Source of the DNA: Comamonas testosteroni TK102
GTDB lineage: Bacteria; Pseudomonadota; Gammaproteobacteria; Burkholderiales; Burkholderiaceae_C
NCBI RefSeq assembly: GCF_000739375.1
Contig: NZ_CP006704.1
Span: 3,410,001-3,474,000, forward strand
DNA: 64,000 nucleotides
Reading direction: 5' to 3'
Under the pieces are notes generated by a model, which saw nothing but the letters and a program-made list of their open reading frames with translations, ran no database searches and was not told where the DNA came from. Shown one piece after another: positions 6,379-19,647 of the stretch. Every line of letters starts with the position of its first letter. The first letter of the stretch is position 1. The position numbers and the translations under genes are program-made.

Positions 6379-7395
6379 TCAAATCAGTTTCACCAGCTGC
6401 TTGCCGAAGTTCTTGCCCTTGAGCAGTCCCAGAAACGCGCCGGGCGCCGAGGCCAGACCTTGAGAAATCGTCTCGCGCGGCTTGAGCTTGCCGGCGGCCA
6501 CCAGGCCGCCCAGCTCGGTCAGGGCCTCGCCCCAGACTTCCATGTGCTCGCTGACGATAAAGCCTTCGAGCTTGATGCGGTTGACCAGCAGCAGCGCCGG
6601 GTTGGCCAGTGGCAGGGGCTGGCCGTCATAGCCGGCAATCATTCCGCACAGGGCCACACGCGCAAAGGCATTGGTGCGCAGCAGCACGGCATCGAAGATA
6701 TAGCCGCCCACGTTCTCGAAATAGCCGTCGATGCCGTTGGGGCAGGCATCCTTCAAAGCCTTGGCCATGGTCTTGACATCGGGGTGCTCGCGGTAATCGA
6801 TGCAGGCATCAAAGCCCAGCTCATGCACGGCGTAACGGCATTTCTCGGCACCGCCCGCAATGCCCACCACGCGGCAGCCGCGCGCCTTGGCCAGCGCCAC
6901 AAAGGCGCTGCCCACGGCACCGGTCGCGGCACTGACGACCATGGTTTCACCGGCCTTTGGGTTGATGATCTTGACCAGGCCATACCAGGCCGTGACGCCC
7001 GGCATGCCCACGGCACCCAGATAGTAGGACAGCGGCACATGGGTGGTGTCGACCTTGCGCAGCGCGCCGGGCACGCTGGGGTCGAGCAGCGAGTACTCCT
7101 GCCAGCCGCCCATGCCGACCACCTTGTCGCCGGCCTTGAACTTGGGGTGGCGGCTCTCGACAATCTCGCCTACCGTGCCGCCCTGCATGACCTCGCCCAA
7201 CGGCTGGGGTTGGGCATAGCTCTTGGAGTCGTTCATGCGACCGCGCATGTAAGGGTCCAGGCTCAGATAGTGGTGGCGCACCAGCACCTGACCCTCGCCC
7301 ACCGCGGGCAGCGGCGACTGCACCAGCTTGAAATTGCTCTCCACCGCCTCGCCCTGCGGGCGGTTGTCCAGAAGGATCTGCTGATTGACCGTCAT
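6379..7395 (-). CDS. NADP-dependent MDR oxidoreductase (zinc-free, CurA/leukotriene B4 12-hydroxydehydrogenase type)
   Basis: A 338-residue medium-chain reductase. The N-terminal part has the family phrase LSLDPYMRGRMND, and the Rossmann part has SAATGAVGSAFVALAKARG and GGAEKCRYAV. No catalytic-zinc ligands are present, as in the CurA/YncB and PTGR1 group that reduces activated enones with NADPH. A GGAGAC ribosome site precedes the ATG. Nearby SDR, thioesterase and hydratase genes suggest a role in handling unsaturated or acyl compounds, but that is inference. Confidence 0.85.
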   Translation of the reverse strand: MTVNQQILLDNRPQGEAVESNFKLVQSPLPAVGEGQVLVRHHYLSLDPYMRGRMNDSKSYAQPQPLGEVMQGGTVGEIVESRHPKFKAGDKVVGMGGWQEYSLLDPSVPGALRKVDTTHVPLSYYLGAVGMPGVTAWYGLVKIINPKAGETMVVSAATGAVGSAFVALAKARGCRVVGIAGGAEKCRYAVHELGFDACIDYREHPDVKTMAKALKDACPNGIDGYFENVGGYIFDAVLLRTNAFARVALCGMIAGYDGQPLPLANPALLLVNRIKLEGFIVSEHMEVWGEALTELGGLVAAGKLKPRETISQGLASAPGAFLGLLKGKNFGKQLVKLI

Positions 7396-7530
7396 GTTTC
7401 GTCTCCTGTTTGAAACTCAATTTTCATAGCTGAAAGCGCTTGATATACCTCACACCTACAGCCAATAACATACAAAACAACCATATGAAAGGCGGTAGCT
7501 GCTCATAAAAACAGAGCAGCCGATCTGTAC

Positions 7531-8074: not shown

Positions 8075-8866
8075 TCAGCCTCCGACCAGGGCGCTCACCC
8101 CGCCATCCACCGCCATCCACTGGCCGGTGATGTGCTTGCCAGCATCGCTGGCATAGAGCAGCGTCAGTCCCTTGAGATCCTCGTCGTCACCCAGGCGGCG
8201 CAGCGGGGCATGGGAACGCATTTCGTCCTCACCCAGCGTCTCGATCAGCACGGCCGCCATCTTGGTCTTGAAAAAGCCCGGGCAGATGGCGTTGACCGTG
8301 ATGCCGTGCTCGCCCCACTCGCCAGCCAGCGCGCGCGTGAAATTGATGACCGCGCCCTTGGAGGTGTTGTAGGCAATGGTCTTCATGCCCGTGGGATTGC
8401 CGCCCAGGCCGGCGATTGATGCCAGATTGATGATGCGACCGCTCTTGCGCTCCAGCATGGACAGGCGGGCGATCTGCTGGCTCAGCAGAAAATAGCCGCG
8501 CACATTCAGGTTCATCACCTTGTCCCAGGCCGCCGTCGGGTGGTCCTCAGCCGGGGCGCCCCAGCTGGCTCCGGCGTTGTTGATCAGGATGTCCACATGG
8601 CCGAGGCGCTGCACGGCCTCCTTGGCCAGGCGCGTGATATCGGCCTCGTCCGAGCAGTCGGCGGCAACCCAGTCGGCCTCTATGCCTGCGGCCTGGAGTT
8701 CGGCTGCGGCCTCTTCCAGATCCTTGGCCTTGCGCGAGCTCAGCAGAATCTTCGCGCCGGCCTCGCCCAGCGCATGCGCCATCTGCAGACCCAGGCCACG
8801 CGAGCCACCGGTCACCAGGGCCGTCTTGCCCGAGAGATCGAAAAGTTGCTGCACCGTACGTGTCAT
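8075..8866 (-). CDS. Short-chain dehydrogenase/reductase (SDR, FabG-like)
   Basis: A 263-residue classical SDR: TGGSRGLGLQMAHAL cofactor site, INNAGASWG, catalytic Ser in LASIAGLGG, YNTSKGA for Tyr and Lys, and VNAICPGFFKT; the C-terminus ITGQWMAVDGGVSAL is typical of tetrameric FabG-like enzymes. Likely NADP(H)-dependent, oxidising or reducing a 3-hydroxyacyl or similar substrate. Start at 8866 fits the GGAGAC spacing better than the ATG two codons upstream (8872). Confidence 0.85.
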   Translation of the reverse strand: MTRTVQQLFDLSGKTALVTGGSRGLGLQMAHALGEAGAKILLSSRKAKDLEEAAAELQAAGIEADWVAADCSDEADITRLAKEAVQRLGHVDILINNAGASWGAPAEDHPTAAWDKVMNLNVRGYFLLSQQIARLSMLERKSGRIINLASIAGLGGNPTGMKTIAYNTSKGAVINFTRALAGEWGEHGITVNAICPGFFKTKMAAVLIETLGEDEMRSHAPLRRLGDDEDLKGLTLLYASDAGKHITGQWMAVDGGVSALVGG

Positions 8867-9074
8867 TCTCATGTCTCCTGTTTGTTTTCAAGGTTCAAAC
8901 CGGGCGCGCAGTGCCTTGCAAGGCCTGCCCGTCAAAAGCTGCCTGGATTGTGCGGGCGCCCCAGGTCCGGTGTTGTCACCTGCGTGTCGGCGCTGTCCCG
9001 CAGGTGGCAGAGCCCGCGCTGGCGCTGCCTGCAGGGTCTGCCGGCAGCAGCCCGGCAAATCGCATTCAGCGCCT

Positions 9075-9791
9075 TCAATCGGCAAACAGCGACTGTGTGC
9101 CGCCCCAGGCGCCACCTTCGATCTCCAGCATGCGCAGCTTGGTCAACGCCCCCTGACCGCCCGAAAAGCCGCCCGGTGCCCGCCCCGCCGCCAGCACGCG
9201 ATGACAGGGAACAATCGGTGCAAACGGATTGGCGCCCAGCGCCTGGCCCACGGCGCGCGCGGCACCGGCCTCGCCCAGTGCCGCAGCCACCTCGCCATAG
9301 GTGCTGGTCCGGCCCGGCTCCAGGGCGCGCGTGAAAGCATAGACCCGGCTGTGAAATGCAGGCACGGCAAATTCATCAAGCGCGATCTGCTGCAGATCGG
9401 GCAAATCATGGGTCGACTCTTGCGCAAAGGCCTGGCGCAGATCGCCCAGCACGCCGGCAGCCACAGCCTCCGCGCTGGGTTGCGCCCAGCCCTGCTCGCT
9501 CCGCGAGCTCAGGCCTGCCAGCAGACACTGCACCCCGGCCATGGCCTGCAGTGCAAAACCCGGAACCGCGGAGATGGAGGTCACTGCGCCATAGACCGCA
9601 GGCCCGCGCTGCGGCTGCAGCGCATGGCGTTTGGTCAGGCCCAGCAACATGCGCTCCCGGGTCTCGCCCCAGCTGGCCTCGGGCAGTTGCACGGCGCAGA
9701 CGGCAGCGGCATTCCAGGCCAGTCCGCAGGTACCGATGCGCGTGACAAACAAGGCATGACCGGGAAAAGGCAGCGAAGCAGCGTGATTCAT
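9075..9791 (-). CDS. ogt: Methylated-DNA--protein-cysteine S-methyltransferase
   Basis: A 238-residue alkyl-transfer DNA repair protein. The acceptor motif VPCHRVLAAG contains the Cys that takes the methyl from O6-methylguanine in a suicide reaction; ALGANPFAPI before it and GGFSGGQGALTKLRMLEIEG after it fit Ogt/Ada-C. Residues 1-125 are a ribonuclease-H-like domain typical of this family. It lacks an Ada AraC-like part. Start taken at the ATG at 9791; a GTG two codons upstream is possible. It is divergent from a small gene with a LexA box, and the 116-base gap is shared. Confidence 0.92.
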   Translation of the reverse strand: MNHAASLPFPGHALFVTRIGTCGLAWNAAAVCAVQLPEASWGETRERMLLGLTKRHALQPQRGPAVYGAVTSISAVPGFALQAMAGVQCLLAGLSSRSEQGWAQPSAEAVAAGVLGDLRQAFAQESTHDLPDLQQIALDEFAVPAFHSRVYAFTRALEPGRTSTYGEVAAALGEAGAARAVGQALGANPFAPIVPCHRVLAAGRAPGGFSGGQGALTKLRMLEIEGGAWGGTQSLFAD

Positions 9792-17540: not shown

Positions 17541-17574
17541 AAAAAGGGCCTGGAAACTTCCAGGCCCTTTTTCC
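17541..17574. terminator. Bidirectional intrinsic terminator
   Basis: Stem AAAAAGGGCCTGGAA / TTCCAGGCCCTTTTT between the stops of the convergent CynX-type gene and the HD-Pnk gene. Confidence 0.88.
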
Positions 17575-17577
17575 TTT

Positions 17578-18738
17578 TCATGTTTGCGTGGATGACTCGT
17601 TGACCAGCAGTTGCAGCCCATGCGCCTCGGTCGGCAAGGGCACCTCCCATCGGTGCAACATGCCCAGCAGTGCGGCATTGCCGAGCGTGGTGTCGCGCTT
17701 GCTGTTGCGCGCCAGCAAGGTGGATCTGGCAGCCTCCAGATGCACCAGCTCCACCTGTGCACCATAGGCCAGGCACAGGTCCAGCGTCTTGCCACGCATC
17801 TGTCTGGACAGATGCGTGGCATTCCAGACGAAGGCAGCCTTGGCTCGCAACAGGCTCTTGGCCTTGTCCACGGCTCGGTGGGCAGCAGCGCCCTCGTTCT
17901 CGCCATGGCGCAGGCCCAGCTCGGCACGCGCATCGTCAAACGACACCACGGGCAGGCCCGCATGATGCTGGGTCACCCAGTGGTTCTTGCCCGATGCGGG
18001 CAGGCCGCACATGACAATGACGCGCGAGCCCGGATCTTCGTGCAAGGCGTAGTCCGGGTGCAGCTCGGCACCGCGGAAATAGCGCAGTGCGGTTTCGGCC
18101 GAAGCAAAGCTGCGCGGCTTGCGCAAACAGCCCTCTTCCAGGGCCAGCTCCCTGAACAGCTCGATATTCACCAGCACATTGCCCACATCGGGGCAGATGC
18201 GACCGCGAATATCGGCACGGGCCAGCAGCACCAGCAAATGCAGATCGACCTGCCAGGACAGCTCTCTGACCATGAACTCGGGCGAGACGCCTCGGCGCGA
18301 ATCGGCAAAGGCAAAAAACGGCACCTGATGCACGGCAATCAGCCGACAGACCGCCTCGCGCCGGGCCACGGGCGCGCCCGCCTCCCAGAGCATGAGCCGC
18401 GCATCGAGCGCCCCACGGCGCGAATGGCCGGGCTGCGAGATGCGGCCGTCGTCGGCTATCTGCGTGGTCGAGCACTTGGCGACATCGTGCAGCAGCGCGG
18501 CCAGAAAGACCGTCTCGCGCTCCTCGTTGGTGAGCCCTGCATAGTCGCCGTCCTGCAGCAGTTCGGTCACCACCATCTGCGTATGCGTCCAGACATCGCC
18601 TTCGGCATGGTAGATCGGGTCTTGCGGCGTGGTCCTGGCCAGCTCAAGTTGCGGGAAGGCGTCCAGGCAGGCCGCCCAGTCCACCGAGTCGTGAGCGGAA
18701 TGCGGCACCAGGGCCGCGATCTGTTTCCAGCTCCACAT
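17578..18738 (-). CDS. HD-phosphoesterase/polynucleotide kinase fusion (HD-Pnk), RNA end healing
   Basis: A 386-residue two-domain protein. The N-terminal HD domain shows YHAEGDVWTHTQMVV, FLAALLHDVAKCS (the HD pair), GHSRRGAL and VHQVPFFAF; by analogy with Runella HD-Pnk it would remove 2',3'-cyclic or 3'-phosphate ends. The C-terminal P-loop kinase starts at VIVMCGLPASGKNHW, with the Walker A Ser/Thr replaced by Asn, followed by VSFDDARAELG supplying the catalytic Asp and Arg, and an Arg-rich lid (RNSKRDTTLG); it would phosphorylate 5'-OH ends. The start at 18738 sits five bases after AAAGGAG. The RNA ligase gene lies 72 bases upstream on the same strand, giving a complete healing and sealing set. 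Confidence 0.85.
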   Translation of the reverse strand: MWSWKQIAALVPHSAHDSVDWAACLDAFPQLELARTTPQDPIYHAEGDVWTHTQMVVTELLQDGDYAGLTNEERETVFLAALLHDVAKCSTTQIADDGRISQPGHSRRGALDARLMLWEAGAPVARREAVCRLIAVHQVPFFAFADSRRGVSPEFMVRELSWQVDLHLLVLLARADIRGRICPDVGNVLVNIELFRELALEEGCLRKPRSFASAETALRYFRGAELHPDYALHEDPGSRVIVMCGLPASGKNHWVTQHHAGLPVVSFDDARAELGLRHGENEGAAAHRAVDKAKSLLRAKAAFVWNATHLSRQMRGKTLDLCLAYGAQVELVHLEAARSTLLARNSKRDTTLGNAALLGMLHRWEVPLPTEAHGLQLLVNESSTQT

Positions 18739-18779
18739 AAGTTCTCCTTTCACCGCAGCTTCATCACAAAACCACGGTT

Positions 18780-18793
18780 CTGATAGCTATCAG
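18780..18793. repeat. Perfect 14-bp palindrome CTGATAGCTATCAG
   Basis: In the short spacer between the RNA ligase and HD-Pnk genes. Similar TAGCTATCA or TTGATAGCT words occur near 20366, 54207, 54285, 57767 and 58199, all intergenic, suggesting a small dispersed element rather than an operator specific to this operon. Confidence 0.6.
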
Positions 18794-18810
18794 CGATTTC
18801 TGGTAGAGGC

Positions 18811-19647
18811 TTACCAGCTCTTTTGAATCGCATTGGCAAAGATATCGACGCCTGTGCGCAGACCGTTGGCGACAATGGGCCGCTCGCTGTGATGCGAGCC
18901 GGACTCCAGGATCACCTGCACAAAGTCGGAGCGCACGAACTTGTAGCGCTCCACGGTCTGACCGTTCTCCTCGACCTTGATATACAGACCTTCGGCCAGC
19001 TCGGATCTGTCGGTCTGGCGCCAGGCCAGCGGCAAATCCAGTTTCTGCTTTTGCACCTGATCCTCGAACACCGCCTTCCAGCGAGCGCTGCGCCCCAGGG
19101 ACGGTGCCAGCAATGCCAACAAATCCTGCATGCGCCTCGGCGCGATACCGGCGTAGAGCACAGGCACGGACACCACGGGCACACCGGCCAGCAGCGCATG
19201 ACGCTGCGGCGTGTCCAGAAACTGCTGCTCCGAGCGGTCCCAGACGTCGAACTCGCAAAACCAGTGCGGCAAGGCGTCGTAGTAAAGCGAGTGCTTGGCG
19301 TACAGCCACTCGCCATACATCACATAGCGCTCGTCCAGCAGTGCCATCAGCGCGCCTTCATGGGCTCTGGCCCATTGCTTGTAGGCATTGAACTGGCGCT
19401 CGCGCCCGCCCATCTGATCGGCTTGCAGATAGTGGCCACGCGACTGCAGCAACAAACTGCCGTCGGCGCCAAAGCTCAGCGCCGCATTGGCGCCATCGAG
19501 CTTTTCCTCGACCACGATATGCCGGCCGGCCAGGGCTTCATAGGACACGGCATCGGCCTGATCACCGACCTGCAGCCGCGAGCCACGCAGATGCGGCGTG
19601 CGCGGATATTTGAGTATCTCCAGATTGAATAAATGGGAAGTAGTCAT
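18811..19647 (-). CDS. ATP-dependent RNA ligase (Rnl2/DraRnl-like)
   Basis: A 278-residue nucleotidyltransferase. Motif I is VVEEKLDGANAALSF, with Lys as the AMP acceptor; motif Ia LLLQSRGHYL; motif III/IIIa RYVMYGEWLYAKHSLYYDAL and WFCEFDVWD; motif IV AEGLYIKVE; motif V ERYKFVRSDF. This is the complete set for joining 3'-OH to 5'-phosphate ends through ligase-AMP and RNA-adenylate. Start at MTTSHLFNLEI after a GGAAAG site; the frame is open 41 codons further but those are not ligase-like. Paired with the HD-Pnk gene downstream. Confidence 0.9.
   Translation of the reverse strand: MTTSHLFNLEILKYPRTPHLRGSRLQVGDQADAVSYEALAGRHIVVEEKLDGANAALSFGADGSLLLQSRGHYLQADQMGGRERQFNAYKQWARAHEGALMALLDERYVMYGEWLYAKHSLYYDALPHWFCEFDVWDRSEQQFLDTPQRHALLAGVPVVSVPVLYAGIAPRRMQDLLALLAPSLGRSARWKAVFEDQVQKQKLDLPLAWRQTDRSELAEGLYIKVEENGQTVERYKFVRSDFVQVILESGSHHSERPIVANGLRTGVDIFANAIQKSW

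Follow-up and report, generated by a model that had tools for sequence, protein, structure and literature searches.

A candidate RNA repair operon of Comamonas testosteroni encoding an RNA ligase and HD-Pnk, and the association of HD-Pnk with PrfH-RtcB2

The window, a stretch of 64,000 nucleotides of Comamonas testosteroni TK102 (contig NZ_CP006704.1, positions 3,410,001 to 3,474,000), contains a two-gene cassette for an RNA ligase and the end-healing enzyme HD-Pnk. HD-Pnk co-occurs with the release factor gene prfH in several genome samples, and the two genes are direct neighbours at a number of loci. The operon probably serves the repair of toxin-damaged translation RNA (tRNA and/or rRNA), where it would act as a heal-and-seal arm alongside the RtcB2-PrfH pair of the same genome.

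Both reading frames of the original prediction are present at the positions it gave. The first gene of the operon (18811..19647, minus strand) encodes an ATP-dependent RNA ligase of 278 aa, and directly after it follows the gene for HD-Pnk (17578..18738, minus strand), a protein of 386 aa that combines an HD phosphoesterase with a P-loop polynucleotide kinase. The intergenic gap of 72 bp (18739..18810, minus strand) holds the palindrome TGATAGCTATCA and a likely ribosome-binding site, AAAGGAGAACTT, in front of the ATG of HD-Pnk. This ATG at 18738 is the more likely start compared to a GTG at 18753, and the N-terminus MW.W that results from it is common to 4 of 9 aligned database proteins. A terminator-like hairpin with a 14-bp stem and a T-run on either side (17541..17572, no strand assigned), found by consensus match, lies between HD-Pnk and a convergent MFS gene. 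Since 4363 homologues of the ligase and 1603 of HD-Pnk were found at E ≤ 1e-10 (about 8000 candidates scored for each), neither gene is a chance open reading frame.

A neighbouring ligase has been described for HD-Pnk before, and the HD-Pnk of Runella slithyformis is reportedly often found next to an ATP-dependent ligase. In the genus and family searches a ligase gene is located directly upstream of HD-Pnk at all 32 loci, including that of the window. A wider set of 69 entries revealed two ligase subfamilies that replace each other beside HD-Pnk: within the fetched stretch, type A, to which the ligase of the window belongs, was found in 48 cases and type B in 12, while 7 had no ligase and 2 ended at a contig edge. 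Clustering of neighbours over the homologous loci gave no third conserved gene at a fixed position. An RtcB cluster was present in three loci, and PrfH was therefore followed up.

The ligase matches the Pfam family RNA_ligase (PF09414; E 2e-36, 126 bits, cut-off 27) and, as predicted, carries all nucleotidyltransferase motifs (I, Ia, III, IIIa, IV and V). Motif I, EEKLDGAN (19486..19509, minus strand), includes Lys49, the predicted site of adenylation, and its K, D, G and N are found in 86 of 88 relatives, the other two having gaps. Across the 88 aligned relatives, 86–88 retain the key residues of motifs I, Ia, IIIa, IV and V. The AF2 model is confident (pLDDT 93.5), and its best PDB matches are Naegleria RNA ligase, T4 Rnl2 and TbREL1 (TM about 0.5). 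The single sequence had no match in a phmmer search of the PDB, and the profile gave a weak match (best E 0.02). The protein lies outside the DRB0094 subfamily (TIGR02306, 12.5 bits, cut-off 151).

The partner was described as a 3′-end HD phosphoesterase joined to a 5′-kinase, and Pfam matches, conserved residues and fold agree with this. The HD domain (PF01966; E 1e-5, 25.8 bits, cut-off 22) spans residues about 41–182 (18193..18618, minus strand) and shows the metal-ligand pattern H..HD..D, with H52, D85 and D176 present in 109/109 and H84 in 108/109 HD-Pnks. For this part the A2 profile matched Poly A polymerase 3wfo in its HD portion (E 8e-10). The 5′-OH polynucleotide kinase domain follows at residues about 238–381 (17596..18027, minus strand; AAA_33, PF13671, E 6e-18). 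A phmmer search of the PDB with the single HD-Pnk sequence had no match; a profile search related the kinase domain to Clostridium thermocellum Pnkp, T4 Pnk (1ltq) and PSTK. The AF2 model of HD-Pnk is likewise confident (pLDDT 96), and its kinase half resembles the kinase of C. thermocellum Pnkp (TMt 0.75). The Walker A lysine, general-base aspartate and lid arginine of polynucleotide kinases are all represented: K251, D268 and R315 are found in 108 and R348 in 107 of the 109 family members. These four residues presumably correspond to those of T4 Pnk.

The Walker A motif, GLPASGKN (17983..18006, minus strand), has Asn after GK, which had been regarded as an oddity. In the alignment of 109 HD-Pnks this position is occupied by Asp (56), Asn (43), Ser (8) or Arg (1), with one gap. 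Because Asp or Asn, found in 99 of 109, is the norm for HD-Pnks, GKN was rejected as a sign of an inactive kinase. The Deinococcus radiodurans homologue has a canonical GKS. Three Ser/Thr matches of a first pattern survey of Walker A were off-target.

On family alignment no loss of catalytic residues was seen in the HD, kinase or ligase parts. Judged by these intact residues, the two proteins would supply all steps for mending RNA breaks with 2′,3′-cyclic phosphate and 5′-OH ends, as originally proposed. The substrate would be RNA that metal-independent RNases have cleaved. The HD domain would take off the 2′,3′-cyclic or 3′-phosphate and the kinase would add a phosphate to the 5′-OH, while the ligase would react with ATP to form ligase-Lys49-AMP, pass the AMP on to give an RNA-adenylate and join the 3′-OH to the 5′-phosphate. 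We infer that both proteins are active, that they act jointly on RNA, and what their RNA target is.

T4 Pnkp with Rnl1 or Rnl2 follows the same heal-and-seal logic and chemistry. The kinase domain of the window protein matches T4 Pnk, and its ligase is similar in fold to T4 Rnl2; in contrast to T4 Pnkp, HD-Pnk has an HD instead of a HAD phosphatase, a reversed domain order and a chromosomal gene. C. thermocellum Pnkp combines kinase, phosphatase and adenylyltransferase within a single polypeptide. HD-Pnk shares its kinase fold but is not a member of this family (TIGR04075, 19.6 bits, equivalog cut-off 750). The three Pnkp activities are also named in the consulted part of PMC1997131.

HD-Pnk had been said to be described from Runella. 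This is incomplete, since the consulted part of a 2007 study already deals with the same architecture, N-terminal HD phosphoesterase and C-terminal P-loop kinase, in D. radiodurans, and refers in addition to a PNK with an HD domain from phage RM378 (PMC1997131). According to the same part, the Deinococcus protein DRB0098, which corresponds by operon order to WP_010884033.1, is likewise encoded beside an ATP-dependent ligase; kinase activity was measured for it, and adenylyltransferase activity but no sealing was seen for the ligase (PMC1997131). The HD-Pnk of the window is 31% identical to WP_010884033.1 and differs from it in GKN versus GKS. Its ligase belongs to another PF09414 subfamily than the Deinococcus ligase (278 aa versus 210 aa), and no PARG/macro gene lies between the two genes, unlike in Deinococcus.

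The Deinococcus operon was termed a putative DNA repair operon, is upregulated on irradiation, and its DRB0098 phosphorylates DNA 5′ ends (PMC1997131, consulted part). HD-Pnk could accordingly prepare 3′-phosphate/5′-OH DNA ends for a DNA ligase. Nevertheless, both family and fold place the partner ligase among RNA ligases, the recurring neighbours are genes of RNA repair and ribosome rescue, and the study detected no DNA ligation by the proteins of the Deinococcus operon, whether singly or together (PMC1997131). A role in DNA strand-break repair is scarcely probable on these grounds. Two points on relatives count against the proposed repair of translation RNA: the Deinococcus ligase showed no sealing, and the Runella HD-Pnk is said to heal DNA ends in addition to RNA.

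The pair is not the only means of RNA repair in the genome. Three RtcB loci were found, all outside the ligase/HD-Pnk locus. The first comprises an Rsr-like gene, YrlA, RtcB and RtcA, the second a third RtcB, and the remaining one RtcB2-PrfH, both of whose proteins score above the NCBIfam cut-offs. An Rsr query over the HD-Pnk loci found no locus.

HD-Pnk and PrfH are found in the same genomes more often than expected. Among 340 genomes of the order sample, 21 have HD-Pnk, 33 PrfH and 17 both (expected 2.0; Fisher 2.8e-16), and counting by genus (108 genera) gave 11, 17 and 9 (p 2.9e-7). The corresponding numbers are 10, 9 and 4 for 200 genomes of the family sample (p 3.6e-4), 24, 18 and 16 for 53 Comamonas genomes (p 4.8e-6) and 4, 6 and 2 for 369 genomes of the class sample (p 0.0013). 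The tests were repeated without G388 or G000, the genomes that had prompted them. Significance was retained for the order (p 2.4e-15; genera 1.5e-6), the family (p 0.0032; genera 0.029), Comamonas (p 9.4e-6) and the class (p 0.04); omission of both genomes left no signal in the class sample (0 genomes with both genes). HD-Pnk without PrfH occurs in 4/21 order, 6/10 family, 8/24 Comamonas and 2/4 class genomes. Common descent or comparable mobility of the two genes could account for part of the co-occurrence, an effect which the counts by genus lessen but do not abolish.

Physical linkage was surveyed over 88 HD-Pnk loci using 706 open reading frames of the own genome and six RNA-repair genes entered by name as queries. 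RtcB2 and PrfH lead at ≥35% identity (6 and 5 loci) and at ≥40% (5 and 4), while at ≥30% two ABC-transporter ATPases, a paralogous family, match 8 and 7 loci and rank above RtcB2. HD-Pnk and PrfH are adjacent at 7 of the 88 loci (L044, L070, L100, L102, L201, L211, L213), with at least four origins on a tree that includes six of the seven. L211 carries a contiguous array rtcB2-prfH-ligase-HD-Pnk on one strand, with 14–50 bp from prfH to the ligase. No mention of a link between HD-Pnk and PrfH was found in the literature searched, supplements excluded, including the consulted parts of PMC9223846, PMC6514570 and PMC1586002; within this literature the co-occurrence and adjacency may be new.

According to the consulted part of PMC9223846, the RtcB2-PrfH pair repairs colicin-cut ribosomes, with colicin E3 cuts in 16S rRNA as one known source of damage, and does not work against colicins E5 and D, which act on tRNA. 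Like the window pair it deals with 2′,3′-cyclic phosphate/5′-OH RNA breaks, but by different enzymes, namely GTP-dependent RtcB sealing and a release factor. As RtcB2 already seals such ends, a partnership would be redundant unless the targets differ; the failure against E5 and D leaves such a niche for ligase and HD-Pnk. The distance of about 0.79 Mb between the two systems in the genome of the window also counts against a partnership.

PrfH does not adjoin HD-Pnk in the surveyed Comamonas genomes, judged by contig positions, which would fit the original view of a free-standing tRNA repair system against phage- or stress-triggered anticodon nucleases, unrelated to ribosome rescue. Its chemistry would be as in T4 Pnkp/Rnl1; homologues occur on viral contigs, and one locus (L117) adjoins topoisomerase and terminase-like genes. 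However, only 2 among 50,697 records of named phages gave a match, each below 60% identity and one covering 19% of the query, no defence gene adjoins the pair in the window, and the association with PrfH would need a separate explanation. Indeed, no toxin, phage gene or RtcB was found among the immediate neighbours examined, as had been stated, and the suggested setting of phage defence was not supported: PADLOC, applied to nine window proteins, gave no model for HD-Pnk or ligase at E ≤ 0.001. Of the seven neighbours, an ABC transporter ATPase matched mad3 (E 9e-22) as well as four weaker models, and a deaminase matched one weak model. We attribute these hits to the general resemblance among ATPases and among deaminases; a defence island at this locus was rejected. 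Altogether we regard free-standing tRNA repair as rather unlikely.

The cassette is patchily distributed (24/53 Comamonas genomes, 10/200 in the family sample), as would be expected for a mobile cassette of little current importance to this host that is maintained by transfer while decaying. Five genomes with mfs and without HD-Pnk were fetched: in two (L159, L160) mfs adjoins phnD and the cassette is absent, while the others (L157, L158, L161) say nothing on an empty site because the fetched stretch has no phnD match. In one near-identical HD-Pnk allele 41 aa are missing from the HD domain. Nevertheless, the HD, kinase and ligase residues are nearly invariant across phyla, and the 24 Comamonas matches are free of internal stops except near the C-terminal end. 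Mere persistence by transfer is highly improbable in view of these data.

HD-Pnk enzymes occur in a wide range of bacterial phyla. They have been assayed, though no report of their natural RNA was found in the literature searched. The statistical and physical link to PrfH-RtcB2 turns this question into a simple toxin-recovery test and is a better lead than the original reading. We tentatively propose, at somewhat less than even chances, that HD-Pnk and ligase form the conventional (3′-OH/5′-phosphate) sealing arm of a PrfH-RtcB2 translation-repair network, joined to it repeatedly and covering breaks, for example anticodon cuts in tRNA, that RtcB2-PrfH cannot mend. HD-Pnk would be the constant part and the ligase interchangeable or doubled according to the target; that a single healing enzyme is paired with either of two exchangeable subtypes of ligase suggests target-specific sealing.

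The original observation of a two-gene module, predicted to repair RNA, is borne out: both genes are present and adjacent on the minus strand and carry matching Pfam domains. The first gene (18811-19647) encodes an RNA ligase of 278 aa (Pfam RNA_ligase), and the second one, HD-Pnk (17578-18738; Pfam HD and AAA_33), follows after 72 bp. Because the ATG at 18738 is preceded by AAAGGAGAACTT, HD-Pnk probably comprises 386 aa; from the GTG start it would have 391. Between HD-Pnk and a convergent MFS gene is a terminator-like hairpin (17541-17572), whose 14-bp stem is flanked by a T-run at either end. In a natural HD-Pnk allele of a close relative (P0029, 340 aa) 41 residues of the HD domain are missing. 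The HD-Pnk gene of the window (18738-17578, minus strand) has direct repeats TTCGCGCCG bordering the deleted stretch, at codons 105 and 146 with a spacing of 123 bp, which suggests slippage or recombination between these repeats as the origin of the deletion.

The ligase shows motifs I (EEKLDGAN), Ia (SRG), III (YGEW), IIIa, IV (EGLYIK) and V (RYKFVR), with key residues conserved in 86-88 of 88 aligned relatives. The Gly of KxDG in motif I is not absolute, since it is replaced by Ala in 24 and by Cys in 2 of the 120 best ligase matches (26/120; P0121-P0240). H52, D85, H105, D176 and R180 are the same in all 109 aligned HD-Pnks, and H84 in 108; the kinase residues K251, D268 and R315 are each present in 108 and R348 in 107. 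AlphaFold2 yielded confident models for HD-Pnk (pLDDT 96.0) and the ligase (93.5). The kinase half structurally matches the Clostridium thermocellum Pnkp kinase (TMt 0.75) and also mammalian PNKP. The HD-Pnk profile A2 additionally picks up T4 Pnk and, through the HD half, the HD region of poly A polymerase. The ligase fold resembles those of Naegleria RNA ligase, T4 Rnl2 and trypanosome REL1 (TM about 0.5). The ligase does not belong to the DRB0094 subfamily (TIGR02306; 12.5 bits vs. a cut-off of 151).

The Walker A sequence GKN of the kinase had been considered noteworthy, Ser/Thr being usual at this position. Within the family this view does not hold: of the 109 HD-Pnks, 56 have D after GK, 43 have N and 8 have S, with one R and one gap. 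Of these rows 32 stem from searching the genus and the family, and two contigs or more (L028/L034, L010/L101) are, to judge by their length, present twice. Thus, N or D marks most of the HD-Pnk family. The Deinococcus homologue, assigned as DRB0098 by operon order, has GKS, and 5′-kinase activity of DRB0098 was measured (PMC1997131).

HD-Pnk was found in 24 of 53 Comamonas genomes, in 10 of 200 genomes family-wide, in 4 of 369 class-wide and in 21 of 340 from the order of G388. All 32 loci obtained by searching the genus and the family, among them that of the window, have the ligase directly upstream of HD-Pnk. The distance between HD-Pnk and mfs is at most 0.6 kb in 10 of the 24 Comamonas genomes, and 2.2 and 6.6 kb in another two. 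On the other side of HD-Pnk, phnD (named after a PF12974 match) is present in four of the five mfs-linked stretches fetched (L162, L163, L169 and L170, not L171), and five further fetched stretches carry HD-Pnk at other sites. Other neighbours are presumably phnC, phnE and PaaX. L159 and L160 lack the cassette, and their mfs and phnD matches are separated by about 360 bp. The existence of mfs-phnD sites with and without the cassette, together with the split of Comamonas HD-Pnks over separate tree clades (L002/L026, L029, L030), points to a mobile unit of two genes. By the tree labels, homologues are spread over at least seven phyla; they are also present on plasmids (48 of 72,556 records) and on viral contigs, one of which (L117) bears topoisomerase and terminase-like genes. 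In L057 (Pectobacterium sp.) and L102 (Jannaschia sp.) HD-Pnk is broken into two reading frames.

The partner ligases belong to two PF09414 subfamilies, type A, which includes the window's ligase, and type B, which is smaller at about 210-250 aa. For 81 HD-Pnks (51 with A, 17 with B, 3 with both, 8 with none, 2 at a contig edge), a tree built by a quick method with long rows flagged, and labelled by HMM score thresholds of our own, requires at least five changes between A and B. Sister HD-Pnks with unlike ligases are those of Comamonas L029 (A) and Bordetella L043 (B) and of Burkholderia L044 (A) and L113 (B). Five of the eight Walker A Ser rows are distant copies (L099, L100, L105, L119, L120); the tree includes four of these, all within the deep type-B clade. 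In L214, L215 and L216 (order of G388) a three-gene array places HD-Pnk between ligase B and an A-like one, so that a single healing enzyme is flanked by two different RNA ligases. In Deinococcus radiodurans a microbial-type PARG gene (PF10021; L175:5063-5917) lies between the small ligase and HD-Pnk, a hint that this variant may involve ADP-ribose chemistry.

The window's genome contains a single PF09414 match and three RtcB loci. The first (L172) comprises, in this order, an Rsr-like gene (76 bits, under the cut-off of 900), the Y-RNA YrlA (7378-7507), RtcB, a gene we read as nucleotidyltransferase-like, and RtcA, together a Ro/Y RNA/Rtc locus. Another encodes a 492-aa RtcB relative. At the RtcB2-PrfH locus, about 0.79 Mb from the cassette, both proteins exceed the NCBIfam cut-offs.

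By tblastn, RtcB2 and PrfH adjoin HD-Pnk in four loci (L044, L070, L100, L102). To test this link, HD-Pnk was counted against PrfH alone in slightly overlapping genome samples, with p-values that ignore phylogeny except for those by genus. PrfH is present in 33 of the 340 order genomes, 17 of them with HD-Pnk vs. 2.0 expected (Fisher 2.8e-16); by genus (n=108) the numbers are 11 for HD-Pnk, 17 for PrfH and 9 for both (p 2.9e-7). The family sample gave 9 with PrfH and 4 with both (p 3.6e-4), by genus (n=141) 8, 7 and 3 (p 0.004), and the class sample 6 and 2 (p 0.0013). Among the Comamonas genomes 18 have PrfH and 16 both (p 4.8e-6); the two genomes that have PrfH but lack HD-Pnk show a completeness of 85 and 87%. 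The window's genome was already known to carry both genes, and the order was sampled because they are side by side in G388. With the prompting genomes dropped, p is 2.4e-15 for the order (genera 1.5e-6), 0.0032 for the family (genera 0.029), 9.4e-6 for Comamonas and 0.04 for the class; in the class sample without both the window's genome and G388 the signal is gone.

Eighteen flanking stretches (17 of the 22 order matches plus G553) revealed further adjacent loci (L201, L211, L213), L212 being, to judge by its length, the same contig as L100. For the five remaining order matches PrfH is on another contig, 47 kb off (G893) or absent (G941). L211 is a four-gene array rtcB2-prfH-ligase-HD-Pnk on one strand: rtcB2 overlaps with prfH, as does the ligase gene with HD-Pnk, and the gap from prfH to the ligase start is 14 or 50 bp, depending on which of two ATGs is used. 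Adjacency requires at least four changes on the HD-Pnk tree, counted for six of the seven loci (fragmentary L102 omitted), and occurs with type A (L044, L070, L102) and type B (L100, L201, L211, L213). As a neighbour control, 706 ORFs from 43 stretches of the window's genome (40 at spaced positions plus those of the three RtcB loci) and six RNA-repair genes entered by name were compared to 88 HD-Pnk loci. At ≥35% identity RtcB2 (6 loci) and PrfH (5) rank top, ahead of three proteins with 4 loci each; when the threshold is lowered to ≥30%, 8 and 7 loci are matched by two ABC ATPases of a paralogous family. This control misses L044, whose adjacency is detectable by tblastn alone. In L044 (11529-18168, Burkholderia aenigmatica) two HD-Pnk-matching frames beside RtcB2-PrfH are separated by three genes on the minus strand, of which two resemble integrases (PF13009, PF00589), as if an element had inserted at HD-Pnk or duplicated part of it. 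In L100 a small LMW phosphatase-like gene (8749-9093) separates PrfH from the ligase.

HD-Pnk and its frequent operon with a ligase have reportedly been described for Runella. The Deinococcus operon of both genes is likewise known (PMC1997131). The surroundings of PrfH-RtcB are described to include TPR, Pol-beta and other accessory genes (PMC6514570); 'kinase' and 'polynucleotide kinase' are absent from the main text of that paper. A link between HD-Pnk and PrfH was not found in the literature searched, Burroughs and Aravind (2016) lying outside it. The operon is thus of a known type, and the PrfH association is, as far as could be seen, unreported.

Colicins E3, E5 and D generate breaks with 2′,3′-cyclic phosphate and 5′-OH ends; RtcB2-PrfH shields Escherichia coli from colicin E3, a 16S rRNA cutter, but gives no protection against E5 and D, which act on tRNA (PMC9223846). 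A heal-and-seal ligase and HD-Pnk, co-occurring with RtcB2-PrfH, would fit as an arm for breaks of other kinds. The association with PrfH makes the role of HD-Pnk and its ligase testable.
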